A stretch of DNA of 46,140 bases from Nitrospiraceae bacterium (GCA_002726235.1 PBSN01000002.1:112400-158539); one strand, 5' to 3'; counted from the first letter of the stretch, positions 16,827 through 46,140 are shown. Made by a program: numbers and translations. The notes: a model not told the origin generated them from the letters alone.

Positions 16827-17858
16827 CTACCCAACGGAACACTCCGATTCGTGCGCGCGAGTCGCCACTTCCTTGGCAACCTTTGCTCTCCAGAACGCCA
16901 TGAGATGCCGTACACTCTCTTCAATCGTGTACTTTGGCTTCCAGCCCGTTGCATTCAAAAACTTCTCCACCTTGGGTATCTGAAGCGTCACGTCAGCAGG
17001 GCGAAGAAGTTGTGGGTCCTGTCGAGTCTGGATCGGCACCCGACTCTCCGTTTTCAATAGTGCAAGAAACTCTCCAACACTCATTGATGTCGCGCCACCG
17101 ATGTTATAGGCCTCCCCTGGCTGGCAATGCACTATGGCCTTCCAATACGCTTCCATGGCGTCTCGAACATCAATCAACGTTCGAATTGAGTCAAGGTTAC
17201 CATGGAGAAGCTCACACTGAAGCCCGTGTTCAATCCGAGCTACCTGCCGGGCAAACGAGGTCGCAAACAGATCCGTACGCCGTGGATTAAAGTACGCAAA
17301 CATACGTGTCCGAATGATTTGCATCTGATAGCTACGGAAATACGTCCATCCCAGCAAATCTTGCGCTACTTTCGACACCGCATACGGGCTGGACGGCCGA
17401 AGCGCTACCTCCTCGGCAATGGGAACATCTTTCGGGTCAACCTGGCCATAGACCTCAGACGTGCTACAGAGTTGGATAATAGGATTAATCCCCGCGATCC
17501 TAACCGCCTCAAACAAATTTGCTGTACTCATGATGTTGTTATTGAGAACTGCCAGCGGGGTGGTAAACGACGCTTTCACATTCGCATGCGAAGCGAGATG
17601 AAAAATGGCATCAGGTCTCACGGCGGAAAGCACGGCAAACAGCGAACTAAAGTCGTTCATATCACATTCATGCATAACCACGCTTGAAGCAATTCCTGCC
17701 AGATTGCTAGAAGCGGTCGTACTATGCCAACGAGAAATTCCATGAATTTCAACCGCCGGGTGATTCTGAACAACGTACTCGGCCAAGTAGCTACCACCCG
17801 ATCCGCTAACCCCCGTGATGAGGATGCATTTGAAGTCTGTTACACGTTTCGTTTCCAT
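16827..17858 (-). CDS. GDP-mannose 4,6-dehydratase-like NAD-dependent sugar dehydratase
   Basis: About 343 residues from the ATG at 17858, which has GGGAG four bases upstream; an ATG 15 bases earlier lacks one. Glycine motif TGVSGSGGSYLAE, then CSTSEVYG with the catalytic Thr/Ser and Glu, SPYAVSK with the Tyr/Lys pair, and AYFNPRRTDLFATSF, which resembles the substrate loop of GDP-mannose and GDP-heptose 4,6-dehydratases (GMD, DmhA). Given HddA and HddC homologues nearby, GDP-heptose is a reasonable substrate. GDP-mannose is equally possible from sequence alone. The product would be a 4-keto-6-deoxy nucleotide sugar. Confidence 0.8.
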   Translation of the reverse strand: METKRVTDFKCILITGVSGSGGSYLAEYVVQNHPAVEIHGISRWHSTTASSNLAGIASSVVMHECDMNDFSSLFAVLSAVRPDAIFHLASHANVKASFTTPLAVLNNNIMSTANLFEAVRIAGINPIIQLCSTSEVYGQVDPKDVPIAEEVALRPSSPYAVSKVAQDLLGWTYFRSYQMQIIRTRMFAYFNPRRTDLFATSFARQVARIEHGLQCELLHGNLDSIRTLIDVRDAMEAYWKAIVHCQPGEAYNIGGATSMSVGEFLALLKTESRVPIQTRQDPQLLRPADVTLQIPKVEKFLNATGWKPKYTIEESVRHLMAFWRAKVAKEVATRAHESECSVG

Positions 17859-17957
17859 CCCACTCCCAAGCATTTACTCATCACAAGGGAGGCCAATGAG
17901 GCCCCAGTTCACAAAGACCAATTCGCAGAGCAGTCAGCTCGGTTGCGGGAAACATAC

Positions 17958-18938
17958 TCACGGCTTAAGAACCCCCTTTTCTCCCGCATAAAACTGATGG
18001 GCATTATAAACTTCCTCTATTTTCATTCGTTTCTCCTCTGCAAGTGCCCCAAGGTAGCTTGCGTCAACGTTTTCCTCGACATGTTGTTTACGCAACATTC
18101 CCGGAATAGCCGTTGAAACAGCAGGATAAGATAAACAATATCTCAATGCCAGTTGAGCGTCAGTTTGATCCTCTGTTCGCCGTATTGTGGAAAACCTCTG
18201 GTTCGCGGCGGACCAGAGGTCGAGTTGCTCAGAGGACCAGCGACTACGATGATCATACGCACCAAATTCTGTTTCAGCCGTATACCTTCCGGTCAAAAAC
18301 CCAAAGCAGAGTGGTGTTCGGCATATCAATCCAACCCTCTTCGTCTCACACAAACCCATAAGTCCATTCAACAGCATTCGCTGGTCAGCCATATTAAAAT
18401 TGACCTGTAGAACATTTGCGCCGAAGTGTTCTATGGCGAGCAATCCATCATCGGGACATCGCACTGAAATTCCCCACGACCGAATCTTTCCTGCTCTCTC
18501 AAGTGATTGAAGGGTGTCAACAATCTCCTCAGCATTGCCCAGAGACGCCAACGGCGGATCATGTAACTGATACACGTCAATATAGTCCGACTGGAGTCTT
18601 TTCAGGCTCCCATCAACGGACATCTCGATATGCGCGGGAGAAAAATCCTGATGGCCATTTTGGTCGAGAAGTCCGCCTTTTGATGCAATGACCACCCGGT
18701 TTCGAATCTCCTTAAATGTCTCACCGATCAATCGTTCACTGTGACCATGTCCATACAAATCAGCGGTATCATAAAACGTGATGCCCAAATCAAACGCACA
18801 TTTCAAGGCCTCTCGGCTCTCCGTATCATCGGTCGGCCCATATGATATCGCTCCCTGATTCACCCCACCAATACCCCAAGCACCAAATCCAATCTCAGAC
18901 ACCCTGAGCCCAGTGCAACCAAGCGTTCTATAGTTCAT
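17958..18938 (-). CDS. Aldo/keto reductase
   Basis: About 326 residues from the ATG at 18938. Upstream codons of the open frame overlap the previous gene and do not resemble the family. The N-terminus MNYRTLGCTGLRVSEIGFG is characteristic. The catalytic tetrad is visible: Asp and Tyr in FYDTADLYGHGHSERLIG, Lys in VIASKGG, His in YQLHDPP. Such proteins reduce aldehydes or ketones with NADPH. In glycan clusters they can finish deoxysugar or branched-sugar synthesis. Spaced 64 bases from the preceding radical SAM gene. Confidence 0.87.
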   Translation of the reverse strand: MNYRTLGCTGLRVSEIGFGAWGIGGVNQGAISYGPTDDTESREALKCAFDLGITFYDTADLYGHGHSERLIGETFKEIRNRVVIASKGGLLDQNGHQDFSPAHIEMSVDGSLKRLQSDYIDVYQLHDPPLASLGNAEEIVDTLQSLERAGKIRSWGISVRCPDDGLLAIEHFGANVLQVNFNMADQRMLLNGLMGLCETKRVGLICRTPLCFGFLTGRYTAETEFGAYDHRSRWSSEQLDLWSAANQRFSTIRRTEDQTDAQLALRYCLSYPAVSTAIPGMLRKQHVEENVDASYLGALAEEKRMKIEEVYNAHQFYAGEKGVLKP

Positions 18939-19002
18939 GATCGTATATGCATCGGAAGAAGCGTGGTCAAAACAACGATTATGGACATTGCTACTTCCCT
19001 TT

Positions 19003-20997
19003 TCAGTAATGCCCTGACAGCTGAGCCTCGACAGCATTATTGCCGTAAAGATAGGCTCCTTTTTTGTTTCCATACCAGATCACCTCCCGACACCAGTCAT
19101 CCCAAGAAGTCCAGATCTGACTCGTGCGGTCAATGTGATAGGTCGTTGGTCGGTTCTCCAGAGAAATCTGCGTGCCACGTAGTACCGACTGATAGTATTC
19201 CCACACGTTGTGAGACAGTTCGAGAGAGAGATCATCCGTTTGGAAAGGAAATTTCATCGAACTTCTATTAAATTCGATGGTTTCATGAAGAAGCCCTGCT
19301 GGGAGAGACAGGGAATGCTCTCTAAGATACTGCTCCAACACCACTTCCGCTTCATCGTAAAATTGCTGCAGGTTGTTTTCCACACACAACTTGATCAGGA
19401 TATATTCATCCGCCGGCCAATAAATATTAAGCCAATCTTCAGAGAGACAAAATTCTGCCCCCCCATCTTGTATATCTCGCGATTTATCCATGAAAAACTG
19501 CTGGACCGAGGCGAGAACAGGAAGCTCATTGAACGCTCTCCCTACGAACATTTCGATGAGATCTCGACAACTCACAGAACAGATTTTTTGTATGAGGACA
19601 AAGGGGATTTGCAATATCTTATTGAAGTAGAGAAGGGCTGCCATCCATGAAAATACTCGGATCCTCACCCAATCATTCTTTGGCATAGAGTTGGTGCCAA
19701 CAACGAGAAATTGAGTTTCACAACATTCATCCTCAGATTCCTCAAGGGTTCCATGGATATTGATCAATTGCGTTTCAACAATGATCATTCCATATGTCTT
19801 TTGATACTCAGGGTCTCCCATTTCTGCATTGGGAAGAATGGAGAGATTATTGAATTGAATGCGGTTGTGTTGCCCATTCTCAACAATCGTCGATACCGCG
19901 TTGGTAAAGGACTCGTAGGTTTCCCCTGGAAGCCCAAGAATCAAATCTGTAAAAGTTTCAACATTATCTCTTGTAAACCGCCTCTGGAGTTCTTGATATG
20001 TTTCCGTTGAAATATTTCCTCGCTTAATGCTCTTCAGTGTATTCGAATCCATCGACTGCAGGGCAATATCAACTCCCTTATTCAATCCGCTATCGGCGAG
20101 GATTTTCTGCGTGAGATATGCACGTTCCGTCGCATTTTTCGTCGCCTGGACTGAGAGTGCTTTGGGATACCCATATTGCTTCTTTGTCTGTGCGGCATAG
20201 CTGGCAAGGTCCACATCTCTCTTCAAGATTCCAAAGTTGGCATCGCAGCAGAAGACAAATTCGATTTTATGATCAGCGAACCACTCCAACTCTTTATGGA
20301 GTCGTTCAATATCAAACGAGTACACCTTGCTCGCAATAGCCGATCCCCAATCACAAAAGGTGCAGGCAAAGGGACATCCCCGGTTTGTTTCCCACAATCC
20401 AATCCAATGCTCAGAAGGATTAGCTTTCATGAGCGGAGCAAATGCCCCCGCGAGATAAGGAGACGGGAACTGGTCTAACTCCTTCACTCGTCCAGCTTTT
20501 TGGTTCGTAACAACACATCCATTTTCATCCACAAAGCTCACTGACGGGACGTCAGACCAGTCCCTGGACTCATAGCGATCTAAGATCGCGAGCGCCACTT
20601 GCTCCCCTTCACCATGACAGGCAAGATCTATGAAAGAATGCTTCTGTAGAAATTCATGGTCCTTCTCCGGCACATGTGGCCCACCAAACACAATCAGAAC
20701 ATTTGGCTGGCGGCATTTCAATCGCTGCGCAATTTCAAGCGAAATCTTCGCGTTCCACACATACATACTAAAGAACACAACATCCGCTTCAAGGAGACTG
20801 TGAACCGCTTCCTCTACTGAAATTCTGCTGTAGAGAGGCAAGAGAAACTGATAATGTTCTGGATGGCTGCTGTGTTTTTGCACGTATGCTTGTAGCATTC
20901 CAACCGATAACGGCAAATAGTTCTGGTTTGAGAAACTATTATTAATCTGAACCAAACCAACGTTTACCTGTTGTCGTTCACCGTTGCTCAACATCAC
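19003..20997 (-). CDS. B12-binding-domain radical SAM protein (intact)
   Basis: 664 residues. B12-binding-like domain at about 1-170 (LPLSVGMLQAYVQK, VFGGPHVPE, CHGEGE). Radical SAM domain from about 200, with Cys208, Cys212 and Cys215 in RGCPFACTFCDWGSA. GLPGETYESF is present and a long C-terminal domain follows. Related proteins include cobalamin-dependent methyltransferases such as GenK that methylate unactivated carbons of sugars. GTG start at 20997 preceded by AAGGA seven bases upstream (ATG at 20994 is an alternative). The only one of the three B12-type radical SAM genes here that is uninterrupted. Confidence 0.85.
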   Translation of the reverse strand: MMLSNGERQQVNVGLVQINNSFSNQNYLPLSVGMLQAYVQKHSSHPEHYQFLLPLYSRISVEEAVHSLLEADVVFFSMYVWNAKISLEIAQRLKCRQPNVLIVFGGPHVPEKDHEFLQKHSFIDLACHGEGEQVALAILDRYESRDWSDVPSVSFVDENGCVVTNQKAGRVKELDQFPSPYLAGAFAPLMKANPSEHWIGLWETNRGCPFACTFCDWGSAIASKVYSFDIERLHKELEWFADHKIEFVFCCDANFGILKRDVDLASYAAQTKKQYGYPKALSVQATKNATERAYLTQKILADSGLNKGVDIALQSMDSNTLKSIKRGNISTETYQELQRRFTRDNVETFTDLILGLPGETYESFTNAVSTIVENGQHNRIQFNNLSILPNAEMGDPEYQKTYGMIIVETQLINIHGTLEESEDECCETQFLVVGTNSMPKNDWVRIRVFSWMAALLYFNKILQIPFVLIQKICSVSCRDLIEMFVGRAFNELPVLASVQQFFMDKSRDIQDGGAEFCLSEDWLNIYWPADEYILIKLCVENNLQQFYDEAEVVLEQYLREHSLSLPAGLLHETIEFNRSSMKFPFQTDDLSLELSHNVWEYYQSVLRGTQISLENRPTTYHIDRTSQIWTSWDDWCREVIWYGNKKGAYLYGNNAVEAQLSGHY

Positions 20998-27835: not shown

Positions 27836-28744
27836 CTACACATCTCGAAGCATCATCTCAACAGTATCGACGATGCGCATGGTGGTTGGCGTCCCGTTTT
27901 CCAAACGCTTCGCTACGCCTGGGGAACGATCCGCTTGCCCCACCGCCTTAACCGGACACCCAGTGGCATACATTAATTCATATGCCACAGATTGTGATGC
28001 CCCGGCAATCTCATAGGCAGAATCAACAACGATGCCGTGACCACTCGCCTTCAACGGCTCCATCACTCTCTGAGTTAGATCAAACGGCTTTAACCATAGG
28101 AGGTGTACAAGGTTGCATCTTACCCCCCTGTGACCAAGCACCTCGACGGCTTCGACCGCATTGAAACGCGCCGCCGACATGGCATAGATCGTAATGTGTG
28201 CATCATGGTGTACCTGATCCGGCATTTCTTGTCTGCTGGTGTAACTACGCCGGTGTTCACTCACAAGCAACGGGTCATCGTGCGTCATATACCAATTCCA
28301 AATCTGCACATACTCGTTTGGCGTCATCGGCGCACACACTGGAAGACCCGGCATATGCATGAACAGACTGTGGAAGCAATTGGTGTGTATTGGTCCTGTA
28401 CTGTCACCCTCACTACCAATCGCACGCACAAACACCGGCGCCGGATAACCAAAGACGCTTTTCGCTTTCGCGGCGTGGTTGACGATAGGACTTGCATTGA
28501 GCCACAGCAAACTTTGAAACCGAATGATAAATATCGGTCTCCGCCCCATAATGGCAGCGCCAACTGCAATGCCAGCTCCAGACACGTCTGTCATCGGCAA
28601 CTCCACAATACCCTCTGCCTGTGCCGGCACAGTATTCTGGACCCATCCCACCGCAGTAAGACACTGACCAAGAAGAATGCCGTTGTGTTTCGCAATGTGC
28701 TCGCGGCTTATATCGCGGATCGTCTCTGCAACCGTTCGTTCCAT
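27836..28744 (-). CDS. TPP-enzyme E1 beta-type / transketolase C-terminal subunit, pair 2
   Basis: 302 residues of the pyrimidine-binding/transketolase-C layout found in E1 beta subunits. GAGIAVGAAIMGRRPIFII aligns with the cofactor region of pair 1, but the conserved Glu that activates TPP (Glu61 in pair 1, PLSED) is Asp53 here (PMTDV). SYTSRQEMPD and the C-terminal VDTVEMMLRDV follow. It overlaps the alpha gene by 37 bases. No lipoyl E2 or E3 genes are nearby, so it is unlikely to belong to a dehydrogenase complex. A ketol- or acyl-transfer role in sugar or keto-acid chemistry is possible. Confidence 0.75.
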   Translation of the reverse strand: MERTVAETIRDISREHIAKHNGILLGQCLTAVGWVQNTVPAQAEGIVELPMTDVSGAGIAVGAAIMGRRPIFIIRFQSLLWLNASPIVNHAAKAKSVFGYPAPVFVRAIGSEGDSTGPIHTNCFHSLFMHMPGLPVCAPMTPNEYVQIWNWYMTHDDPLLVSEHRRSYTSRQEMPDQVHHDAHITIYAMSAARFNAVEAVEVLGHRGVRCNLVHLLWLKPFDLTQRVMEPLKASGHGIVVDSAYEIAGASQSVAYELMYATGCPVKAVGQADRSPGVAKRLENGTPTTMRIVDTVEMMLRDV

Positions 28745-29706
28745 AAATCCTCGACAAACGTCTTGATTTCCAGTTCGATCGCACGCGCCTTATCACGAAG
28801 TCCAATTTCTGTGAGTTTGGCCTTGGTCAGATCAAAGCGGCTCCACTCTGCATTGTTGTCGCTTCCTGTCCCGTTATGCCAAAACTCGCGACACGTTCGA
28901 ATGTTAATGATTGCAGGAAGCTGATCGGCTAACGTGGTTGTCCAATACTCGATCAACCACGGATCGTCGGTGATGTCCACGGCGTTTAACCCGAAGCCTT
29001 GCGCGACATCTACCACACTCCAGTTTCGCCGCTCAACCGTCGGAGTAAGGACTGAAAGATCGTTATCTTCACAAACGAAAAGAAGTGGAAGTTTCTTGGT
29101 AGCCACAAACCCAAGCGTGGCAAGGACGTAATCCTCTTCGGCGGCCCCGTCACCGAAAAAACATATCACCCGCTCACCTGGCGCCGCGAGGGCAATACCC
29201 GCAGCTACCGGCACTTGATCGCCAATCAGCCCGTTATGAGCGACGATTTTGCGTTCAAAGTCGTGTGACGGCGGTGAACCACCCATACCACCACAACAAC
29301 CCGTGGACATGCCTAAAAGTTCGTCCGCAAGTCGTTCAGGTCGCCCACCGAATGAGAGGTAGACGGAATGGCCTCGATGCTGTCCGAGGACGTAGCATCC
29401 TTCCATCACAACCGCGACTGCTGCAGCAACCGCCTCCTGCCCAACAGAAAGGTAAATCAGACATTCAATATCGTTATCAAGCTGGGCTTGCCGAACACGC
29501 AAATCGAAATATCTTGTCAGGCACATTTTGCGAAACATCGCCAACGATCGTTCAGGTGAGCACGCCTCTGCAAGGCCTTCCATCATCCCCCAATCAGGCG
29601 AACGTACCATCCTTGGCTGTTGAGGCCCCTGCGCAATACCGCGTTCAATACTCATATGCTTGATCCAAGCTTTAAAATCATACGGAAAAATGTCATGGGC
29701 CCACAA
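28708..29706 (-). CDS. TPP-enzyme E1 alpha-type subunit, pair 2
   Basis: Up to 332 residues. The TPP/Mg motif GDGAAEEDYVLATLGF begins at 185 and ends with Asn215 (CEDND). YLSVGQEAVAAAV near 85-98 and HRGHSVYLSFGG are typical of E1 alpha. The N-terminus has about 45 residues more than the alpha subunit of pair 1. The TTG at 29706 directly after the upstream stop is a poor start, and the ATG at 29655 is a reasonable alternative. Partner of the beta gene at 27836. Probably catalyses decarboxylative transfer from a 2-oxo acid without an E2. Confidence 0.78.
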   Translation of the reverse strand: MWAHDIFPYDFKAWIKHMSIERGIAQGPQQPRMVRSPDWGMMEGLAEACSPERSLAMFRKMCLTRYFDLRVRQAQLDNDIECLIYLSVGQEAVAAAVAVVMEGCYVLGQHRGHSVYLSFGGRPERLADELLGMSTGCCGGMGGSPPSHDFERKIVAHNGLIGDQVPVAAGIALAAPGERVICFFGDGAAEEDYVLATLGFVATKKLPLLFVCEDNDLSVLTPTVERRNWSVVDVAQGFGLNAVDITDDPWLIEYWTTTLADQLPAIINIRTCREFWHNGTGSDNNAEWSRFDLTKAKLTEIGLRDKARAIELEIKTFVEDLWNERLQRRSAI

Positions 29707-30867
29707 TCAGCCAACAATTCGATTCACAAGATTCACAATATCGTCATCTACGATCATTTTCTTTTTGGCCGATAAATCCTTGAAGGACAAATAGACCTTA
29801 TCGAAATCTTGCGGCCCGATGTCCAAACTCAATTCCATTATTTTTGTCCGCAACGCATGCTTGCCGGATAGCTTTCCCAGCATAAGATCAAACTTTCGAG
29901 CCCCGACTGTTTCCGGCTCGATAATTTGATAGGTTTCACTGTTGCACAGCATGCCGTGCTGATGAATTCCAGACTCATGCTTAAACGCGTTCTCCCCGAC
30001 AATCGCCTTGTTGGGTGCGACCCTCATTCTTGAGAGCGCCTCGACCAACTTGCTCGTTTCCAGGATTGCTTTGGTATTAATATCAGCCTGAACTCCAAAT
30101 TGGGTCGGCCTAGTCTTTAGCGCCATGACAACTTCTTCCATCGACGCGTTTCCTGCACGTTCCCCGATCCCGTTGATCGTGCATTCTGCCTGGCCTGCAC
30201 CCGCGGCCAAGCCAGCCAACGTATTCGCAGTAGCCAACCCCAAATCGTCGTGGCAATGTGTAGATACCACCATATCTTTCACGCCTGCTACCTTGGCAAG
30301 TACGGTTTTGACGATCGAAGCATACTCTGTAGGGATGGAGTACCCTACGGTGTCTGGAATTTCTAATGTTCGCGCTCCAGACTCCCCCGCAACGGTAAAA
30401 ACACTGCACAAGAAGTCCAGATCGCTACGTGTCGCATCCTCAGCTGCAAATTCAACATCCTCGACCAACGATCGTGCGAACGCAACGGTTTCTCTCGTAA
30501 GATCAATTACCTGCTCCCTAGTAAGGTTGAGTTTGTATTCTAGGTGCAAATCTGATGTCGCGAGGACAACCTGAATTCTTGGCTTAGCCGCTGGTCTGAG
30601 AGCTTCGTACGCGCACTCGATATCGCGCTTATGGGCCCTGGCCATGGAACAGATCGTAGGGCCATCTGGAGAACCAAGTTCCATGGCAATACGGTTGACT
30701 CCTTGAAAGTCAGACTCTGACGCTACGGCAAACCCTGCTTCGATAATTGGAACATTCATGTTCACAAGCTGACGGGCAATCTCCAGCTTTTCCTCGGGAA
30801 AAAAATTGACGCCAGGCGACTGTTCACCATCACGAAGCGTGATGTCATTTAACAGGATTCTTCTCAC
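29707..30867 (-). CDS. 2-isopropylmalate/homocitrate-synthase-like condensing enzyme
   Basis: About 386 residues from GTG 30867 (GGTGA just upstream). The open frame extends farther, but that stretch overlaps the previous gene. NDITLRDGEQSPGVNF, EAGF, STHCHDDLGLATANTLA and NGIGERAGNASMEEVVM are diagnostic of the HMGL-like family, with metal-binding Asp and His intact. ESGIHQHGM and LGKLSGKHAL follow. It stops there, so the C-terminal leucine-regulatory domain of LeuA is absent, as in NifV/FrbC-type enzymes. It condenses acetyl-CoA with a 2-oxo acid. Location between a sugar epimerase and a TPP pair argues against leucine synthesis. Confidence 0.82.
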   Translation of the reverse strand: MRRILLNDITLRDGEQSPGVNFFPEEKLEIARQLVNMNVPIIEAGFAVASESDFQGVNRIAMELGSPDGPTICSMARAHKRDIECAYEALRPAAKPRIQVVLATSDLHLEYKLNLTREQVIDLTRETVAFARSLVEDVEFAAEDATRSDLDFLCSVFTVAGESGARTLEIPDTVGYSIPTEYASIVKTVLAKVAGVKDMVVSTHCHDDLGLATANTLAGLAAGAGQAECTINGIGERAGNASMEEVVMALKTRPTQFGVQADINTKAILETSKLVEALSRMRVAPNKAIVGENAFKHESGIHQHGMLCNSETYQIIEPETVGARKFDLMLGKLSGKHALRTKIMELSLDIGPQDFDKVYLSFKDLSAKKKMIVDDDIVNLVNRIVG

Positions 30868-30886
30868 GTTTTCACCATGAAAACCC

Positions 30887-31861
30887 TTATGTTGGGATTG
30901 ATTCTCCGAGCAGGTTCTCACGATACCAACGTAACGTTTTTTGAATCCCCCCGTCGAGCGAGGTATTTGGCGTCCAGCCATACCGCGATTTCGCTTTATC
31001 GATATTCAAATCAAGCTTGAAACCTATGCTAGGCTTTGTTAAATCGAATTCGGCTTTTAAATCCATTCCTGAAAACTGGATCATCTTGTGGACGAGGTCT
31101 CGAACCGAGACTGATTTGCCTAACCCCAGATTGAGAAGTTCAAATGCCACGTTTTGCTTTTCTAAGGCCAGATGAATGAAGTCGATGAGGTCATCAACAT
31201 AGAGAAAATCACGCTCATCAGTCCCGTCACCCCAAACCATAATTTTTCCGTCCGTTGCAGTCAGTACCTTGGTCATCGTGGCACCAAATACATGTGATCG
31301 TTCCAGATCAAATTTATCGTGTGGGCCATAAATGTTTGAATGGCGAAGCACGGTGTATTTCGTTGAGCCTATTTGAGAATAAAACTCACACATTTTTTCG
31401 TGATACACCTTGGTCCATCCGCTGGCAAAATATTTCTCGTGTAGCTCTCCATTAAAATCTTCTTCTTTCACCGGTTCTTGCTGCTCTTGATACATCACTG
31501 TGCAACTCAGAAAAACCACATGCCCAACTCCTGCCTCATGGCTGGCGCGAAACAGAAGCGCATTCATGATTACGTTATCGGTGACATGGATATATGGACT
31601 GTTAACAATATCTTTGGCGCCTGAGGTTGTTGCTGCGCTCTGAACAACAACATCCATACCCTGGACCACACGATATACATCATCTCGATTCGTCAGTTCG
31701 GCTTGAAGATATTCAACCGACGGAGTCTTATGAGGCACATCTGCTAGGTTCTGCCTACAAGTAGCGTAGACGTCATAGGCCGCATCTTTAGCAAAATACT
31801 CACATAGATTTCGACCAATAAATCCTGTTCCGCCGCAGACTAAGAGCTTCCGCCGCTTCAT
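30887..31861 (-). CDS. NAD-dependent epimerase/dehydratase (GDP-fucose-synthase-like), copy 1
   Basis: About 324 residues from ATG 31861, overlapping the stop of the next epimerase gene (ATGA). Motif GGTGFIGRNL, then IYGPHDKFDLERSHVFGA, a segment typical of GDP-L-fucose synthase/WcaG-type enzymes. The usual YxxxK cannot be located cleanly: the region reads SGWTKVYHEK, and the catalytic Ser/Thr neighbourhood is SCTVMYQE. The next gene upstream is closely related, so this looks like a tandem duplication. Probable nucleotide-sugar epimerase-reductase. Confidence 0.75.
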   Translation of the reverse strand: MKRRKLLVCGGTGFIGRNLCEYFAKDAAYDVYATCRQNLADVPHKTPSVEYLQAELTNRDDVYRVVQGMDVVVQSAATTSGAKDIVNSPYIHVTDNVIMNALLFRASHEAGVGHVVFLSCTVMYQEQQEPVKEEDFNGELHEKYFASGWTKVYHEKMCEFYSQIGSTKYTVLRHSNIYGPHDKFDLERSHVFGATMTKVLTATDGKIMVWGDGTDERDFLYVDDLIDFIHLALEKQNVAFELLNLGLGKSVSVRDLVHKMIQFSGMDLKAEFDLTKPSIGFKLDLNIDKAKSRYGWTPNTSLDGGIQKTLRWYRENLLGESIPT

Positions 31862-32826
31862 GTCTGACATCGTCCAATGTGTTTCTGATACCAATCAATC
31901 GTCCGCATCAGACCATCTCGAAGACTCACACGTGCTTCCCAACCCAACAGTTCTTTGGCTTTTGCTGGATCGGATACTCGATAAGGGATTGTCGCCGGTT
32001 TCTCAGGATCATACGTCACCGACACGTCAAGATGCAGGATGTCCAAGATCACGGACACGAGATCCTTAATCGTGTATGCCTCCTTGGCGCTGATGTTTAC
32101 CGGAGAGCATGTCGCGTTCGTGTCAAGATTGATCATCAGGCCATCGACCAAATCATCAACGTATGTAAATGATCGAATTTGCTTTCCGTCTCCCCATACC
32201 TCGAACGGATTCATCCCCTGTGTCGCCTTGACAATCAATGCCGGGATGACGTGACATTGATCGAGATTAAAGTTATCGTGCGGCCCGTAATACGCATTAG
32301 GGCGAACGATTGCATATCTTGTCTTGCTGGTCATGTGACTGTATCGACACAGCGTTTCCAGATAACGCGTTGTCCAGCCTATACCATAATTTGTGGGAAT
32401 CCATGGATCACCTTGGAAGCCTTCACTTTCTACATTCGGTTTTCCCGTATCAGGATAGATATAACAGCTACTGATGAAACTACATCGATCCACCTTCATC
32501 TCTGCGGCCAGTACGATTAGTTTCGAATGTATATATAAATAATCTAAGATGAGGCTCGCTGGATTAGCTTGGATCTCCTTGGCACCGCGTACTCTGGCGG
32601 CTGCAAGAAAAACAATATCCATATCCGCAAACGCTGCGCGAGCCTTATTCTCGTCCATCAAATCACAAGACATAACCTCCAGGTTCGCGTGCTGCAGCAG
32701 CACCTTTCGAGTCGTATACTGCGTCGCTCTGACGAACGCGCCTTGTTCGAGAAGTTTTCGCACGAGGCTTTGCCCAACCAAGCCTGCGCCGCCAGCGACA
32801 AGAACGTTTTTCCCTCGGTAAAACAT
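31858..32826 (-). CDS. NAD-dependent epimerase/dehydratase (GDP-fucose-synthase-like), copy 2
   Basis: 322 residues with VAGGAGLVGQSLV, SSCYIYPDTGK, AYYGPHDNFNLDQCHVIPALIV, VWGDGKQIRSFTYVDDLVDG and GWEARVSLRDGL. Strongly colinear with the gene at 30887 and with fucose-synthase-like reductases. The lysine expected in YxxxK reads as Thr in NYGIGWTTRYLE, though alignment there is uncertain. The two tandem copies may reduce or epimerise successive intermediates of the same 4-keto sugar. It lies about 90 bases after the TPP beta gene. Confidence 0.75.
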   Translation of the reverse strand: MFYRGKNVLVAGGAGLVGQSLVRKLLEQGAFVRATQYTTRKVLLQHANLEVMSCDLMDENKARAAFADMDIVFLAAARVRGAKEIQANPASLILDYLYIHSKLIVLAAEMKVDRCSFISSCYIYPDTGKPNVESEGFQGDPWIPTNYGIGWTTRYLETLCRYSHMTSKTRYAIVRPNAYYGPHDNFNLDQCHVIPALIVKATQGMNPFEVWGDGKQIRSFTYVDDLVDGLMINLDTNATCSPVNISAKEAYTIKDLVSVILDILHLDVSVTYDPEKPATIPYRVSDPAKAKELLGWEARVSLRDGLMRTIDWYQKHIGRCQT

Positions 32827-32919: not shown

Positions 32920-33960
32920 CTAGAAAGGTCCTTTGAAGTTTTTTTCGTAACTGTAGAACGATTCCCCACTCAGATCGGAATGTTCAAGGCCTAACATGCG
33001 TTCGACCGCCTGAATGATCGTCACTGCTGAAGGATAAAAGAGGTTTTCCAAGGGGCGAGTCGTTGGACATGGCACAGACGCGAAACCAAACCGTTCTACC
33101 GGCTTCTCCAGGACCTCAAAACACCTGTGACTAATGAGCGCAGCCAATTCAGCCCCGAACCCACAAAACACCCAGTCATAGTCGACAACAAGGCAATGCC
33201 TGGTTTTCATGACGGATGAGGTGATCAGTCCCTCATCCAAAGGGGTAGCGGTTCGCACATCCACCACCTCCAACTCAACTCCTCGTTTAGCCAAAACGTC
33301 TGCCGCTTTCAATGCCTCAATGTTCATCCACGATGTCGCCACCACGGTCAAAGCATCACCTGTCCGACGTATGACGGACGACCCGAGGGGAATTTCCTCT
33401 TCCTCATCCAACTCCCCTTCAACATCGTACAGCCACCGATGCTCCATGAAAATCACAGGATTGTCATCGCGAATCGAAGACCTCAATAGGCTATAGGCAT
33501 CTTGAGGCGTCGTCGGAAGAACAACTTTCAGACCGGGAAAATGTGCAAATATCGAATGGAGTGATTTGCTATGTTGGGCCGACTGGCCCCACCCACGTCC
33601 GATGATAGCTCGAATCACTAATGGGATCTTCAGTCTGCCCGCACTCATATACCGCAGATTCGACACCATATTCGCAATCTGATTTATACCCAAAAGCATA
33701 AAATCCGCGCGGATATGTACGTGGACTGGCCTTAAACCTGAAGCGGCTGCTCCTAATGCAACACCGGTCATTGCATCCTCTGAGAGAGGGGTCCCAAAGC
33801 AACGATCCGTACCGAACCGCTCGACCAAACCACGCGTACTTCCAAATATTCGCTTGTGATCCGGCACATCGAGGCCAAACACAAAAACCGTCGGATCTCT
33901 TTCCATCTCCCGCGTGAGAGCGAGGTTTAATGCCTTGCGAAATGTCGTCAGCGATGTCAT
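32920..33960 (-). CDS. TPP-enzyme E1 beta-type / transketolase C-terminal subunit, pair 1
   Basis: 346 residues. The Glu61 needed to activate TPP is present (GTPLSEDAMTGVALGAAASG). FMEHRWLYD and VVDVRTATPLDEGLI, with DYDWVFCGFGAELAALI, are typical of transketolase-C E1 beta chains. The ATG overlaps the alpha subunit stop (ATGA). It pairs with the alpha gene at 33957 and is followed by the two fucose-synthase-like epimerases. No E2/E3 partner, so two-carbon transfer to a sugar acceptor is the favoured idea. Confidence 0.8.
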   Translation of the reverse strand: MTSLTTFRKALNLALTREMERDPTVFVFGLDVPDHKRIFGSTRGLVERFGTDRCFGTPLSEDAMTGVALGAAASGLRPVHVHIRADFMLLGINQIANMVSNLRYMSAGRLKIPLVIRAIIGRGWGQSAQHSKSLHSIFAHFPGLKVVLPTTPQDAYSLLRSSIRDDNPVIFMEHRWLYDVEGELDEEEEIPLGSSVIRRTGDALTVVATSWMNIEALKAADVLAKRGVELEVVDVRTATPLDEGLITSSVMKTRHCLVVDYDWVFCGFGAELAALISHRCFEVLEKPVERFGFASVPCPTTRPLENLFYPSAVTIIQAVERMLGLEHSDLSGESFYSYEKNFKGPF

Positions 33961-34928
33961 ACGAAAACATCGGTGTACAGCTCCGATGGAGCAGGGAATG
34001 GCGCCTGTTTTGCGGCTTGAATGCTTCGAGCAATCTTTTCATCCACCTCCGTTCGTATCGCGCGCAAGTCATCAAGCGAGCACTCGTTCCTGAGGAGATT
34101 TTTCTCAAATCGAAGAACAGGATCGAGACGTGCCATTTCCGTCGACGCCGGCCGAAGCCTATACCCCACATCGAAGTCTTCTGCTATGCCAACATGCTCG
34201 AGAAACCGCAGATACGTAAGATGAAGAAACCCAGGTTTTGGTTGCTCAGACATTTGCTCCACCATCTGACGTGTCATCATGATGACCTCTTGGACATCGC
34301 TCCCATCCCCACTCATGCAATAACACTCAAATCCCCCAACAATTTCTGATATGGATCGAAAGCCTTGTCGCGCAGCTGAAGGGGTATGGATCGCTAGATT
34401 ATTGTCTTCACACACAAACAGGATGCGAAGGCGATGCAAACAAGCAAAATTCATGCTCTCCCAGAAGCTACCTTCTTCCACCGCACCATCACCAAAAAAG
34501 GCAACCGCCACGTCATCTGACTTCTTGTACTTGGCAGCAAATGCTGCACCTACCGCTAACGGAATTGTTGTTCCAACGACGGCCGATGTTGCGACCAAAC
34601 CGCTCTCCGGCGCGGAGAGATGCATCGACCCTGCTTTTCCTTTTCCTGCCCCTGTTGCCTTGCCGTAGAGTTCCGCAAAAAACCCATCAGTGTCATCGGT
34701 GAGCATCAGGTACAATGCGTGGTTGCGGTATGTTCCGAAACACTGCGTTGCCTCTGGCACCCCAGATAAGACACCGACAGGTATCGCCTCTTGCCCAATA
34801 CTCAGGTGAACTGGGGTTTTCATTCCATCATTGCCATATTCTTCGCGAATCTTTTCCTCCGCTTGCCGAATTAGGACAAGCTTCCGATACAGATAAAGCG
34901 ATTCATCCGTACGTAACCGTGCCGTCAT
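33957..34928 (-). CDS. TPP-enzyme E1 alpha-type subunit, pair 1
   Basis: 323 residues. The TPP/Mg motif begins GDGAVEEGSFWESMNFA (146) and ends with Asn177 (CEDNN). HLSIGQEAIPVGV (41-53) and GKGKAGSMHLSA (95-106) are hallmark E1 alpha segments. The ATG overlaps the stop of the ColD-like gene and the 3' end overlaps the beta gene (ATGA at both ends), so the three are probably co-translated. In avilamycin synthesis a pair of E1-type subunits (AviB1/AviB2) is proposed to add a two-carbon branch to a sugar. That is the closest known parallel I can name. Confidence 0.82.
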   Translation of the reverse strand: MTARLRTDESLYLYRKLVLIRQAEEKIREEYGNDGMKTPVHLSIGQEAIPVGVLSGVPEATQCFGTYRNHALYLMLTDDTDGFFAELYGKATGAGKGKAGSMHLSAPESGLVATSAVVGTTIPLAVGAAFAAKYKKSDDVAVAFFGDGAVEEGSFWESMNFACLHRLRILFVCEDNNLAIHTPSAARQGFRSISEIVGGFECYCMSGDGSDVQEVIMMTRQMVEQMSEQPKPGFLHLTYLRFLEHVGIAEDFDVGYRLRPASTEMARLDPVLRFEKNLLRNECSLDDLRAIRTEVDEKIARSIQAAKQAPFPAPSELYTDVFV

Positions 34929-36091
34929 TGCACTGCCCCCAGAACTGTCTGTGAGATGAACGCTAAAGATTCCTCATTCAGAGAAGGATTGTTCGGAAGA
35001 AATAGCCCGCAACAATGAATCCGATCGGCCATAGGAAAACGTGTCGTTCCGTACCTATCGGACCAAAACGGATGCAATCCAAGGTTTCCAGCTGAAAAAA
35101 TTCTCGTCTCAATGCCGTTCCGCACAAGAGCAACAATGATCTGCTTACGCTGTCCTTCACTCGCTGCCAGAAGACCAAACGAGATGCTCGCAACCTGACA
35201 CTCTGGCTCGCAGCGCTGAACAGTGAATGTATCCCCAAGCCGTTGCATATAATAAGCGTGGTTCTCTTGCCGACGAGAGGTCATCCAGTCCAATTTTTCA
35301 AGTTGGACAAGCCCAATGAAGGCATTAAGGTCTGTTGATCGCAAATTAAATCCAGGCTCATAAAAGACAAAGGGTGCATGGAAATCATCAATATGGTGCT
35401 GTTTAAGCAACGATTGGTGATCCCTGCCATCTAGGTCTTTGCTCCAACCATGGCTCCTGAGCATCAGGAGTAAGTTGTTGAACGTTGCGTCATCAGTCGA
35501 GACCATGCCACCTTCTATCGTCGACATCTGATGACCAAAGTAGAACGAGAAACTCGCCATATCACCAAAACTGCCAACCTTGTTCCCCTTGTATGATGCC
35601 CCAATTGCAGCACAGGCATCCTCGAGCAAGAAAAAACCGTACTTGTCTTTCAGCGCAAGCACCGCGTCCATCTTATGTGGCACACCAAGCACCTGAACCA
35701 TTAGGACGGTGCTTGGTTCATACTCTTTAAGAAGGCTCTCAAGATGATCTAAATCAAGCCCAAAGGTGTCCGAATCGGCTTCACACATCACCGGCTCAAA
35801 ACCAAACTGGATTGCCGGCGCAATGGAGGTTACCCAACCAACACTGGGAACAATTACTTTCTTGTTCTTGAGTTTCCCAGACAGGAGAAGGGCATAGTAC
35901 ATGAGGAGGTTAGCTGACGATCCAGAATTGCAGTTGACCGAATAGGACCGGCCAAGCCACCGACTCCATTTATCTTGAAAGTCAATGGTAACGTCACCTT
36001 TCGTCAAGCGCGGATTTGTCTGTAGCCACTGGATCAAGCGAGCGATGTCCTTGGCATCGATGGTATCTTCAGCCAAGTGAAATTTAATCAA
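34925..36091 (-). CDS. ColD-like PLP-dependent nucleotide-sugar 3-dehydratase (DegT/DnrJ/EryC1 family)
   Basis: 388 residues, the same length as E. coli ColD from memory. The DegT motif that normally holds the PLP lysine reads SFYFGHQMSTIEGGM, with His187 in place of Lys. ColD uses His188 there to remove the 3-hydroxyl from a GDP-4-keto-6-deoxy sugar, while ordinary sugar aminotransferases keep Lys. The [2Fe-2S] Cys cluster of the CDP-ascarylose E1/RfbH enzymes is not seen. So a glutamate-dependent 3-dehydratase, not an aminotransferase, is expected. Its product (a 4-keto-3-deoxy sugar) could be the acceptor for the TPP pair encoded next. Confidence 0.85.
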   Translation of the reverse strand: MIKFHLAEDTIDAKDIARLIQWLQTNPRLTKGDVTIDFQDKWSRWLGRSYSVNCNSGSSANLLMYYALLLSGKLKNKKVIVPSVGWVTSIAPAIQFGFEPVMCEADSDTFGLDLDHLESLLKEYEPSTVLMVQVLGVPHKMDAVLALKDKYGFFLLEDACAAIGASYKGNKVGSFGDMASFSFYFGHQMSTIEGGMVSTDDATFNNLLLMLRSHGWSKDLDGRDHQSLLKQHHIDDFHAPFVFYEPGFNLRSTDLNAFIGLVQLEKLDWMTSRRQENHAYYMQRLGDTFTVQRCEPECQVASISFGLLAASEGQRKQIIVALVRNGIETRIFSAGNLGLHPFWSDRYGTTRFPMADRIHCCGLFLPNNPSLNEESLAFISQTVLGAVQ

Positions 36092-36153: not shown

Positions 36154-36918
36154 TCACTGTGCGCTTTCATTTTTGAGCGACAGCCCTCGGTCAGGTACAT
36201 ATCGAGCAAAAAACTGCTCAGCTGCCCTATATGATTCCGGTGTGCCCACATCTAAGAAATCCCCTTGGCTACGGCACCCATGCAACGTTTCGCCAACCCA
36301 GGCAGGAAAGACCTCACGTTCAAGTGATTCGGCGCCACTCGATACAATGTCAGACAACATCCGCTGAGAAAAAAGATACATACCCGCGTTGATCCAGCAT
36401 CGTTCATCGGACGAATCTCCTTTATCGTCGCTTTTTTCTTTAAAACGAACAATGTGATCATGCTGATCCAAAACCACACTCCCATATCGCTCAGAATCGG
36501 GAACAGCCGCTAAGAGCAATGTGGCATCCGAACATCGGTTCCGATGACACGAAAGAAACAGACTTAGATCCGTCTGATAATACGAATCTCCGTTCATCAC
36601 CAACACCACATCGGACTGGAGAAACGGGGCCGCCAAGCGTAGCGCACCAGCGGTTCCCAAGGGTTCTGCTTCCTGAGAATAATTGAGACGGAGACCACGA
36701 TAAGTATCACCAAATGCTCCCTGAATCTGTTCGCCGAGATAGCCCGTACACAAGACAACGTTCTTCAGGTCTCGCTCAACCAACACATCGAGGAGATACG
36801 AAAGAAATGGCCGTCCTCGCACCATAGCCAAGACCTTTGGCGTATCGGCAACGACCGATCGAAGCCGCGTGCCTAACCCCCCTGCCAAAATCGCTGTTGT
36901 GATTTGGTCACTAGACAT
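36154..36918 (-). CDS. hddC: HddC-like sugar-1-phosphate nucleotidyltransferase
   Basis: About 254 residues from ATG 36918, eight bases overlapping the epimerase stop (an upstream ATG extends into that gene). ILAGGLGTRLRSVVADTPKV is the nucleotide-binding loop, VVLCTGYLGEQIQ and YSQEAEPLGTAGAL follow, and NGDSYYQTDL and GDFLDVGTPESY complete the fold. Sequence and length fit D-glycero-alpha-D-manno-heptose-1-phosphate guanylyltransferase, partner of HddA. The symbol reflects similarity and context; a different nucleotide or sugar is possible. Confidence 0.75.
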   Translation of the reverse strand: MSSDQITTAILAGGLGTRLRSVVADTPKVLAMVRGRPFLSYLLDVLVERDLKNVVLCTGYLGEQIQGAFGDTYRGLRLNYSQEAEPLGTAGALRLAAPFLQSDVVLVMNGDSYYQTDLSLFLSCHRNRCSDATLLLAAVPDSERYGSVVLDQHDHIVRFKEKSDDKGDSSDERCWINAGMYLFSQRMLSDIVSSGAESLEREVFPAWVGETLHGCRSQGDFLDVGTPESYRAAEQFFARYVPDRGLSLKNESAQ

Positions 36919-37843
36919 TCCCAAATTCGCCACGTCCAAGCATACGAAACCCCTTTAACAACTCGCGTATGCCCCCTTCAAGAGATCGCTGTGCGCGAAA
37001 CCCTGCTTCTGCAAGCCTTTGGCTTGACACAATATAATTCCGTTTGTCGCGATCACTCCCAATTGGTGCAAAATGGAGGTAAAAAGCTGGAACCTGTTCC
37101 TTGATTTTCAGAGCAAGCTCTTCTTTTGAAAGATTCGCCGTATCAAGTCCTGCGTTATAAGAATGTCCGACCATCTGCTGGGCGTTCTCGATGCAATGCA
37201 CCACACACGCCGCAACATCTCGAATATGAATAAAGTTCCGCTTGAACTCCTTTTCAAAAATGACCAGATAGCTCGAAGAAAAAGCCGCATAGGTAAAATT
37301 ATTGACCAAAAGATCCATCCTCATACGTGGCGACATTCCAAACACCGTGGCAAGTCGCAATGTAATCACATTGGGAGTGCTCAAAAGTTCTGCCTCGGCT
37401 TGGACTTTCGTCCGACCATAGAGCGAAATGGGTTCTAATGGCGTGTCTTCAGTGCAATAGCTATCACCCGATTTAGTTCCATACCCACTGTTCGTTGTTG
37501 GAAACACAATTAATTGCTCCGGACTCCTGATACGGTTGAGCAGTTGGACGGCTTCCAGATTGACGGCCTGAGCCATATCGGGATCACAATCACATGCCGG
37601 CGCCCCGACAATGGCAGCAAGCGGGATAAGGACATCTGCGTTCTTGACATGGTTTCCCAGAAGCGTTTTATCACGTGCGTCACCTAACACAAATTCAAAG
37701 TGATCATTCGCGCAAAAATGAAATAGGCTATGTTGCCGGTAGAGCAAATTATCAATAACAGTTACGTGATAACCAGCCAAAAGAAGATGCTCGCATAAAA
37801 CCGAGCCTAAATACCCCGCCCCTCCTGTAATAAGAATTTTCAT
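36911..37843 (-). CDS. NAD-dependent epimerase/dehydratase (extended SDR)
   Basis: About 310 residues from ATG 37843. The open frame extends 20 codons further, but MKILITGGAGYLGSVLCEHLL is the natural start. TTNSGYG supplies the active-site Ser region and YGRTK the Tyr/Lys pair. RNFIHIRDVAACVVHCIENA and AGFRAQRSLEGGI are typical of UDP-/GDP-sugar epimerases. Its ATG overlaps by one base the stop of a short open frame upstream (TAATG). Likely modifies a nucleotide sugar in the HddC/ColD branch. Confidence 0.82.
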   Translation of the reverse strand: MKILITGGAGYLGSVLCEHLLLAGYHVTVIDNLLYRQHSLFHFCANDHFEFVLGDARDKTLLGNHVKNADVLIPLAAIVGAPACDCDPDMAQAVNLEAVQLLNRIRSPEQLIVFPTTNSGYGTKSGDSYCTEDTPLEPISLYGRTKVQAEAELLSTPNVITLRLATVFGMSPRMRMDLLVNNFTYAAFSSSYLVIFEKEFKRNFIHIRDVAACVVHCIENAQQMVGHSYNAGLDTANLSKEELALKIKEQVPAFYLHFAPIGSDRDKRNYIVSSQRLAEAGFRAQRSLEGGIRELLKGFRMLGRGEFGNV

Positions 37844-38146
37844 TAGTGTGAAACTTTCACGAGGACAAGAGGTCGTTGAATCAACCACGGCCAGCACCTG
37901 CAAAGGCTATCCCCCATGCTACGCAACGGCTGCACAATCTCGCACCGGACTATAAGCACAATATTCAAATCAATCCCTCTCTCCTCTGCCACTTGCAGCA
38001 ACATGCCTGCTTTCAGTTTGCCACGGGCACACTCAGTGCACTCAACGTGCATAGAGTAAGCACTTGCAACTTAGCCATTTATGTCCGAAAAAACAGAAGA
38101 CGATATGGGCCTCTGCCCGAAGCCACAAGCATCACAACCTGTCATA
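37844..38146 (-). other. 303-base gap; short 69-codon open frame of unknown status
   Basis: No recognised gene. A minus-strand frame from 38052 to 37843 encodes about 69 residues, with four cysteines, two of them close together near the start (ECTEC). Its stop overlaps the epimerase ATG (TAATG), which suggests a former coding sequence or a leader. The sequence resembles no family I know and has no Shine-Dalgarno. It may be decayed DNA between the ABC exporter and the sugar genes. I see no promoter or terminator. Confidence 0.3.
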
Positions 38147-43693: not shown

Positions 43694-45310
43694 TCAAATA
43701 CGGCTAGCAAGATTGAGATCACCTAATGTATCCACATCAGCCCAATGGCCACGAATATACTGAATCGTTACTGGAATATCCTGTTCGACAAGAGCATTTA
43801 ACAGGTCCGCTAACGACATTTGTTGGAATGCTGGGACAGAGACAAAACGATCAATACACGTCTTCACATGATCCAGCCCACGCTTAGAGAGTTTCATCAT
43901 TCCAATCCACTCTCCATCAAACGCAAGAGTCTGATCAGGAGCAGTACTGACCATTCGTTTTAGAACGACCCTATCCTCTAATAAATAGGAACCGCTATCA
44001 CGGTGGCTAGCGTAGACATAGTCTGATTCCCGCGCGAGGTGCGTCCGCCCTTCCCAGCCAGAGTCAACGGTTAGGACAATATCATCCTGTTCGCGAATGA
44101 GAAGATCGAGGATGTACGGTTTAAAACAAATATCGCCATAGGCGATCACCACGTTGCTTGAAACCAAGTCAATGGCTTTCGCCAAAGAAACCATTTCACC
44201 AGTGCTCTCATACTCTTGGTTTTCTACAACCTTCACTTTTGGGACATCAATCATTTCCCTGAGATATCCGGCTACAACGATGATATCGTGGATATCATTA
44301 ACCCATAATGCGTTGACCATTCGCTCTAAAATAGTTTCATTGCCTAGTTTTATCATCGCCTTAGGAACATGTTCCGTAAGCTTCCCAAGCGCCAAACCTC
44401 GACTCGCCGCAAGAATAATGGCGGAATGTGCATTGTTTGCAGTGGCCAGATACCGTTTCTCGGCTTCTTGCAATTCATCATCGCCTTGGAGACGAAACAC
44501 TTCCCCAAGTGAAGAAATTTGATCTTCGACGTTGAGCAAATTCTCGTCTACATAAATTCTGGCAGCAACCTCCTGCATTTTTCTAATAGCTCCACGTAGC
44601 AGATGATTTGCCCAAATAACGATTGAGACCTTACGTTCTCGGAATCCCGCTGTGGGCGTTGTGTAATACTTTGTCGGCACCAGAAGAACCGGCAAACGAT
44701 TGGCCCATTCTTTGAGAAATGAAAAAACTTCCGCAGGATCTGAGTGTTTACTGTGAATTAGAATGGCATCTGCCCCAGCACGTCGGTAGGCCTCGGCGCG
44801 TTTCATGGCCTCTCCTAAGCCCCATCCCGCAATAAACGCTTCGATTCTCGCGGTAATCACGAAATCATCATCCCGCTGAACATCTTTCCCTGCCTTGATC
44901 CGGCCACAAAACTCATCAATATCAGCGAGAGGCTGCTTTTCCTCCCTCAAAAAACTATTGGTCTTGGGAAATACTTTATCTTCGATGCAAACCCCTGCAA
45001 TGCCCCGTTGTTCTAACTTTTTGACAAACCTCCGCATGTTATTGAAGTTACCATGCCCAGTATCGCCATCTAATAAAACTGGAATAGACACTGCATCGTT
45101 CATGAATTCAACGGCTTCCAGAACCTGGGTCCAACTGATTTCATTGTTGTCACGAACTCCAAGGGATGCCGACACGGTGAGGCCACTTCCCCAGATGCCT
45201 TGAAACCCAGCATCCTCCACAATCTTCGCGGATAATCCATTGTGCGCTTCCATTAAGAAATCCAGTTGATCTCCTGAAAGCATTTGGTGCAAACGTGTCG
45301 TTTTTTTCAT
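43694..45310 (-). CDS. Phosphoenolpyruvate mutase fused to a nucleotidyltransferase
   Basis: 538 residues. Residues 1 to about 290 form an isocitrate-lyase-fold PEP mutase: DGDTGHG at 81-87 and the diagnostic [10 protein letters not shown] (110-119), matching EDKX5NS of PEP mutases rather than related lyases. It converts phosphoenolpyruvate to phosphonopyruvate, the first step of nearly all phosphonate synthesis. Residues about 296-536 form a sugar-nucleotidyltransferase-like domain as in PntC-type CMP-phosphonate enzymes, but its loop reads [19 protein letters not shown] where AAGxGxRL is usual, so CTP binding may be weakened. No phosphonopyruvate decarboxylase of the usual single-chain type lies in the window. 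Confidence 0.88.
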
Positions 45311-45465: not shown

Positions 45466-46029
45466 TCAGGATGCTGGATACTCCGCGCTGCCAATGATCA
45501 AGTCACACACAGCTAATAGCCACATCTGATGGGTCATTTCAACAATGTTGTAGGCCCGGCTATCAACCCAGAAATTGAGATCTCCCCTCATTTTCAGCGG
45601 GTTGTCGGAAAGAAACCCGGTGAACGTCACCAACACATGATCCTTACTTCGCGCGTAGTCAGCTGCTTTAACCATGTTAATGGATTTGCCGCTCGAGCTG
45701 ATCAGTATTATCAAATCGCCGCCGTCAGCATACAGTTCCAATGCCTTCTCAATCCATCGTTCATAGCCATAATCGTTTGATAAACAGGTCACAAGACCGG
45801 TCTCATTAAAATTCACACAGCGAATATGTGCATTTTTGGAAAAGTCTACGGCGCAGTGGCTCGCAATGGCAGCACTCCCCCCATTCCCAGCAATGATGAC
45901 CTTTTTCCCATCGGCATGAACTCCACTCATGAGTCCCTTTAATTCAATGAGTTGACTGTTCATGTCAGTCCCAAAAATGGACTGACGGTAGCGATCGAAA
46001 TATTCAGCTAAAAACTGTTTCTCATTCAC
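45466..46029 (-). CDS. SIS-domain sugar isomerase (GmhA-like), copy 2
   Basis: 187 residues from GTG 46029. GGAGG (46035-46039) lies five bases upstream. This start aligns the N-terminus (VNEKQFLAEYF) exactly with copy 1 (MSDHQFLSSYF). An ATG at 46041 would add four residues. GNGGSAAIASH and ISSSGKSINM are the phosphosugar motifs. About 70% identical to copy 1 along the whole protein, including the same C-terminus EYPAS. The first gene of the window in transcription order; its own upstream neighbour is outside. Confidence 0.85.
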   Translation of the reverse strand: MNEKQFLAEYFDRYRQSIFGTDMNSQLIELKGLMSGVHADGKKVIIAGNGGSAAIASHCAVDFSKNAHIRCVNFNETGLVTCLSNDYGYERWIEKALELYADGGDLIILISSSGKSINMVKAADYARSKDHVLVTFTGFLSDNPLKMRGDLNFWVDSRAYNIVEMTHQMWLLAVCDLIIGSAEYPAS

Positions 46030-46140
46030 GCTAGCCTCCATCTGATCATTTACTTGCTCACATCAAGTTCATGGCACGCTACCGCCATGCCGGGTGTAGA
46101 ACCCACCCAGATGTGTCACGCACACAGCCCCGGTTCGGCT

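Follow-up and report, generated by a model that had tools for sequence, protein, structure and literature searches.

A three-gene operon coupling a putative ColD-like sugar 3-dehydratase to an E1 pair without an E2 partner: a probable route to a two-carbon-branched deoxysugar in Nitrospirales

Here we describe a three-gene operon from a Nitrospirales metagenome-assembled genome, located on the minus strand of a 46,140-nucleotide stretch of DNA (Nitrospiraceae bacterium, GCA_002726235.1, PBSN01000002.1:112400-158539; the window, from here on), in which a putative ColD-like sugar 3-dehydratase, dependent on pyridoxamine 5'-phosphate (PMP), is encoded together with the alpha and beta subunits of an E1-type enzyme that uses thiamine diphosphate (TPP). 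We propose, with a probability of about 0.6, that a heptose route and an acyloin ligation carried out by the E1 pair combine in this operon to supply a surface polysaccharide with a 3-deoxy sugar nucleotide bearing a two-carbon branch. The proposal is built on the operon itself, the active-site residues of its products, the absence of an E2 partner, the recurrent linkage of such E1 pairs to related dehydratases and the kinship of the surrounding genes with those of heptose pathways, all of them read from sequence.

The dehydratase gene (34925-36091; 388 residues) is followed by those of E1 alpha (33957-34928; 323 residues) and E1 beta (32920-33960; 346 residues), and both junctions are 4-nucleotide ATGA overlaps. 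This confirms the two overlaps described in the original prediction, whose interval (33957-36091) contains the dehydratase and E1 alpha genes but leaves E1 beta just outside, immediately downstream. The arrangement cannot be put down to chance, because a genome of the same genus (84-90% identity) and a deltaproteobacterium (64-78%) both keep it. Among the loci found, the nearest named relative is Nitrospiraceae UBA2166, a member of the same genus.

The evidence supports a ColD-type, Fe-S-free sugar 3-dehydratase as the first product of the operon. The protein belongs to the DegT/DnrJ/EryC1 family (PF01041, 242 bits), and its top four matches among solved structures are all ColD sequences (E about 1e-49). 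His187 aligns with the catalytic histidine of ColD, at the position of the lysine that binds pyridoxal 5'-phosphate (PLP), and none of 13 aligned orthologues departs from it, nor does any in a wider panel. Conservation extends to the PLP-site Asp and to the SGSSANLL, Trp86 and Asn249 positions. The Fe-S motif of RfbH and the E1-type dehydrases (C-X57-C-X-C-X7-C) is absent from the protein, being seen in locus L150 and in the second DegT of locus L058. Both the reading of His187 as the ColD hallmark and the assignment as a 3-dehydratase, made from the sequence in the original prediction, are upheld by these results. The fold, the His-for-Lys exchange, the active-site residues and the lack of the Fe-S motif are features that the protein shares with ColD and with the GDP-heptose C3-dehydratases of Campylobacter jejuni. 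It differs from ColD in its distant identity, in forming a well-supported clade of its own, apart from the ColD clade, and in sharing an operon with an E1 pair, and its substrate is putative. ColD sequences are also the closest solved relatives of its structure model, but the confidence of this model is low (67), probably as a consequence of too uniform an alignment.

The E1 pair comprises an E1_dh protein (alpha) and a Transket_pyr/Transketolase_C protein (beta), with the TPP motif (GDG..N) and the catalytic Glu61 and His130 of the beta subunit intact. When a profile of E1 alphas from sugar loci was run over 295 sampled Nitrospirota genomes, the matches split into a sugar-type (373 bits or more; 47 genes) and a pyruvate dehydrogenase (PDH) type (342 bits or less), the two types being told apart by hidden Markov model score, by a loop motif and by the tree. 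In the window protein, the loop RFLEHVGI..D replaces the GHSM of PDH, and most sugar-type alphas carry [E/G]H[V/C]G[P/A] in that place. The window beta subunit ends in FKGPF, and a C-terminal FxGP[FY] tail is present in 47/72 sugar-type betas versus 0/21 of the PDH type. The source genome, 91% complete, has a single 2-oxoacid dehydrogenase E2, located on contig 3 directly behind a different E1 pair, and a search aimed at E2, not at E3, revealed no dedicated E2 for the window pair in the genome or in its neighbourhood. The same is seen in its relatives: an E2 lies within 7.5 kb of 0/56 sugar-type E1 loci versus 18/23 PDH-type loci (Fisher p about 1e-13, from relatives that are not independent), and in the tree the E2-linked E1s form one clade that includes a few unlinked members. 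The window pair is therefore an orphan E1, and the lipoyl E2 partner whose discovery had been named as an argument against the original prediction was not among the genes found. Neither gene neighbourhood nor genome content places the pair in a PDH complex.

Two-subunit enzymes with these features are known from antibiotic biosynthesis. KbDH, an E1-type pair, has been shown in vitro to install two-carbon branches, and about 120 clusters are predicted to encode such enzymes (PMC12247030); for Plm8/Plm9 of paulomycin, genetic evidence supports two-carbon branching, also on 2,3,6-trideoxyhexoses (PMC4802897). The window pair resembles these alphaKADH2 pairs (KbDH-alpha/beta, Plm8/Plm9, also named Pau11/Pau12, AviB1/AviB2 and EvdU5/EvdS3), although the likeness to the KbDH, AviB and Pau pairs is a descriptive one: separate PDH-E1-like alpha and beta subunits, the TPP motif, the Glu and His residues, no E2 and a setting of deoxy- and keto-sugar genes. 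Their reaction, the transfer of a two-carbon branch from pyruvate to a keto sugar, is the one predicted for the window pair. However, the known pairs come from actinomycete antibiotic clusters, whereas the window is a Gram-negative surface-glycan locus with a ColD-type dehydratase and GDP-heptose genes. In the papers found, branching in Gram-negative lipopolysaccharide is ascribed to YerE-like single-chain enzymes. As in yersiniose synthesis, where YerE acts after a His-type 3-dehydratase, the predicted step in the window is a two-carbon addition at C4 of a 3,6-dideoxy-4-keto sugar nucleotide; YerE, however, is a single-chain flavoprotein of the acetolactate-synthase type, while the window has E1 alpha and beta subunits and these lack the single-chain TPP_enzyme_N architecture. 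No YerE-like gene was found in the genome, which contains one full-length acetolactate-synthase-type protein and one 161-residue fragment. The "different solution" to sugar branching envisaged in the original prediction is therefore an enzyme class already known from KbDH and paulomycin; what appears to be undescribed is that, in surface-glycan loci, it is paired with dehydratases of the ColD/RfbH type and that this pairing recurs across several phyla. In the part of the literature covered, no description of such a pairing was found, and searches directed at E1 pairs in O-antigen loci brought up nothing pertinent.

DegT genes within 7.5 kb were counted in Nitrospirota loci retrieved through E1 alone: a His-type DegT is present in 10/56 sugar-type E1 loci and in none of the 23 PDH-type loci. 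In the DegT tree, the His-type partners come from at least four lineages with support: the clade of the window ColD-like protein; the clade of E. coli ColD (Azospirillum plasmids and L172); RfbH, which carries the Fe-S motif (L150); and an 'AHI' clade (L037, the Solidesulfovibrio magneticus plasmid pDMC1 and L143), the partners in L044 and L160 being isolated in the tree. Locus L037 has E1 genes that share 63-77% identity with those of the window, but in the slot of the ColD-like gene it encodes a His-type enzyme of 26% identity. L150 encodes, in this order, glucose-1-phosphate cytidylyltransferase (RfbF), RfbH, E1 alpha and E1 beta, the first two scoring over their cut-offs and the frames of the last three overlapping or touching; RfbG is on another contig of that genome. 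These genes correspond to steps towards CDP-3,6-dideoxy-4-keto-glucose, which YerE uses as its acceptor (PMC12247030), and the E1 pair stands where YerE would be expected.

The identity of the sugar is suggested by the neighbouring genes, all on the minus strand. A HddC/WcbM-like nucleotidyltransferase (36154-36939) has its best solved matches in proteins of the 6-deoxy-D-mannoheptose pathway, a HddA-like GHMP kinase (15798-16799) in D-glycero-D-manno-heptose kinases, and a 4,6-dehydratase of the GDP-heptose/GDP-mannose type (16827-17873) in the GDP-D-glycero-D-manno-heptose 4,6-dehydratase 7us5. A GmhA-like phosphoheptose isomerase is encoded at 45466-46041, with a second copy at 7232-7795. 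Most cassettes with the ColD orthologue also contain homologues of the kinase and the nucleotidyltransferase, which ties the ColD-like enzyme to heptose, and an extended short-chain dehydrogenase/reductase (SDR) of the SDRup type (36911-37903) is present in nearly all of them. A C. jejuni ColD-type C3-dehydratase converts GDP-6-deoxy-4-keto-heptose into GDP-3,6-dideoxy-4-keto-heptose (PMC10440746), and on the strength of this reaction and of the heptose-pathway matches the latter compound is our predicted acceptor. The GDP-4-keto-3-deoxy type of sugar anticipated in the original prediction is thereby retained; judging from the kinase, transferase and dehydratase matches, it is likely a GDP-heptose and not a hexose.

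We infer the following chemistry, including pyruvate as the donor, C4 as the site of attack and a heptose as the sugar. GmhA, the HddA-like kinase and the HddC-like transferase would generate GDP-heptose, which the 4,6-dehydratase would convert into GDP-6-deoxy-4-keto-heptose. The ColD-like enzyme, with His187 and PMP regenerated from glutamate, would then remove the C3 hydroxyl to give GDP-3,6-dideoxy-4-keto-heptose. On its TPP, the E1 alpha2beta2 enzyme would decarboxylate pyruvate to a hydroxyethyl carbanion, which, rather than ending up as an acetyl unit on a lipoyl-E2, would add to the C4 ketone, an acyloin ligation leaving a 4-C-acetyl tertiary alcohol; the product would be a nine-carbon 4-C-acetyl sugar. 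Reduction of the branch may fall to an aldo/keto reductase (AKR), and methylation of the sugar to a KedN5-like radical SAM enzyme.

Several observations weigh against this pathway. The triad of ColD-like enzyme, E1 alpha and E1 beta, for which a search across genomes had been suggested, does recur with several His-type lineages, but in a second sample, of 44 loci retrieved with the ColD-like protein as query, only 12/44 have a sugar-type E1 pair and 32/44 have none: the coupling is optional, and the ColD-like enzyme works elsewhere without the pair. Conversely, DegT is missing within 7.5 kb at about half of the sugar-type E1 loci, and 17/56 have a Lys-type aminotransferase (3 of the 23 PDH-type loci do): 3-deoxygenation is no requirement for the E1 family, whose range extends beyond 3-deoxy sugars. 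Some 15-20 kb separate the operon from the kinase and 4,6-dehydratase genes, which could belong to the pathway of a different sugar, the FKGPF tail is disordered in the single-chain AlphaFold model of E1 beta, the comparison with the antibiotic pairs is descriptive, and the tandem SDRs beside E1 beta lack normal catalytic residues.

Some of these observations would be accommodated if the ColD-like enzyme and the E1 pair shared an operon and served different building blocks, the former producing an ordinary 3,6-dideoxy sugar and the latter adding two carbons to an aldehyde or a different keto sugar; this acceptor might be GDP-6-deoxy-4-keto-heptose with its 3-hydroxyl, or else an open-chain aldose, which would be turned into a 1-deoxyketose in the manner of DXS. 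The ColD loci without an E1 pair favour this, as do the gene order E1a-E1b-GMD-GHMPk without DegT in several Nitrospirota and viral-binned contigs and the distance of about 5 kb between the E1 pair and ColD in three Nitrospira loci. We consider it unlikely, though the most serious of the alternatives, in view of the ATGA coupling, the repeated adjacency of E1 pairs to distinct His-type dehydratases in varying gene orders and the RfbF-RfbH-E1a-E1b cluster of L150. It is less probable still that the pair acts on a non-sugar 2-oxo acid such as phosphonopyruvate, or takes a donor other than pyruvate, such as the product of a LhgO-like oxidase. A phosphoenolpyruvate (PEP) mutase, over the TIGR02320 cut-off, and a LhgO-like gene do lie upstream, and LhgO-like genes occur at 6/74 E1 loci versus 0/56 others, with same-genus loci counted twice; however, heptose and deoxysugar genes are common at E1 loci, another donor would still yield a branched sugar, and phosphonopyruvate as a general E1 substrate is weakened by the presence of the PEP mutase fusion near the pair in only 2/74 loci. 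We regard as very improbable an ordinary paralogous PDH or acetoin dehydrogenase E1 that feeds the single E2: the fold, the TPP motif and the catalytic Glu and His are indeed shared, a fold comparison gives 37-40% identity between the beta subunit and its PDH-type counterparts and the model superposes well, but the sole E2 has its own adjacent E1 pair, none of the 56 relatives lies near an E2, and the window pair falls outside the E2-linked clade, with a changed loop and the extra FKGPF tail. That the ColD-like protein is an aminotransferase, as the name of its family (PF01041) would suggest, is hardly credible given that every orthologue has His where the Schiff-base Lys would stand and that His-type and Lys-type clades separate in the tree (support 97).

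With regard to the later steps, the pathway we favour has several candidates in the window, again on the minus strand. Of the enzymes that the original prediction expected to finish the sugar, the two reductase-like epimerases fare poorly: SDR1 (31858-32826), which is GDP-fucose-synthase-like, has lost both YxxxK residues (NYGIGWTTR), and SDR2 (30887-31894), of the same divergent group, has lost the Tyr and kept the Lys (YFASGWTK), which makes their role as reductases doubtful. Nearly all loci with such divergent SDRs also hold a sugar-type E1 pair. A role as epimerase-only enzymes sparing the 4-ketone was dropped, the epimerase Cys of GDP-fucose synthase being missing too. The AKR (17958-19073), kept with the E1 pair in L037, L044 and L057, is by analogy the better candidate for reducing the acetyl branch: in paulomycin synthesis the branch is reduced by the AKR Pau7 (PMC4753412), also encoded in a two-carbon-branching locus, although the window AKR matches YdjG/Kv-beta-like AKR models and its role is putative. 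The KedN5-family B12 radical SAM C-methyltransferase-like protein (19003-20997), kept with the E1 pair in L037, L044, L057 and L145, is a candidate for C-methylation. Among ColD loci, neither the AKR nor rSAM3 was a significant marker of the E1 pair. A class I aminotransferase is present in 0/12 ColD cassettes with the pair and in 24/32 without it, a difference whose significance is inflated by kinship; in the Nitrospira cassettes L059-L099, of the order ColD-SDR-SDR-kinase-nucleotidyltransferase, a class I aminotransferase or either E1 pair occupies a similar slot.

The window also contains a second, distant E1 alpha/beta pair (27836-29706; 28% identity to the first), preceded by a LeuA-like enzyme (29707-30981) that lacks a regulatory domain. 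In the beta subunit of this pair, Asp replaces the TPP-activating Glu, as it does in relatives from the Nitrospira ColD cassettes L062, L064 and L095. The PEP mutase (43694-45310), with its ten-residue motif, is fused to a nucleotidyltransferase and neighboured by the LhgO-like oxidase and an aldolase/SDR fusion, and suggests a phosphonate in the glycan. A third pair, of the sugar type, is located on contig 21 of the same genome (L038:4068-8338), with two DegT aminotransferases of the Lys type after it; genome G003, of the same genus, has this pair as well (L051). Elsewhere, pDMC1 (L207) carries kinase, E1 pair, His-type DegT, nucleotidyltransferase, LhgO and SIS-domain genes flanked by IS66, and IMG/VR contigs classed as viral (L208-L213, up to 219 kb) carry sugar-type pairs, some with GMD-GHMPk-NTPt. 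Two Streptomyces plasmid pairs also group among the sugar-type E1s. That of S. griseofuscus pSGRIFU1 (L108:8989-11035), with an EHVGP loop and a FAGPY tail, lies next to regulators and a condensation-domain protein; the stretch read around it shows no obvious sugar genes, and the pair may perform a non-sugar acyloin step.

A wider reading, which we advance tentatively, is that this E2-less E1 branch, with an EH[VC]GP loop in most members and a beta subunit ending in FKGPF, is widespread and undescribed and constitutes a main system of C-branching in Gram-negative surface glycans, recruited repeatedly beside His-type 3-dehydratases and here making a GDP-linked 4-C-acetyl-3,6-dideoxyheptose, a hitherto unknown branched sugar of nine carbons. 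The two motifs set the sugar-type genes, which generic annotation would label as pyruvate dehydrogenase, apart from true PDH E1s, and the RfbF-RfbH-E1alpha-E1beta locus offers a clean assay system with a known substrate, CDP-3,6-dideoxy-4-keto-glucose. If this reading is true, E1-type acyloin ligases would represent a large family of surface-glycan enzymes, extending beyond the antibiotics of actinomycetes; branched heptoses of a kind not seen before would be predicted, and chiral tertiary alcohols could be made with new biocatalysts.

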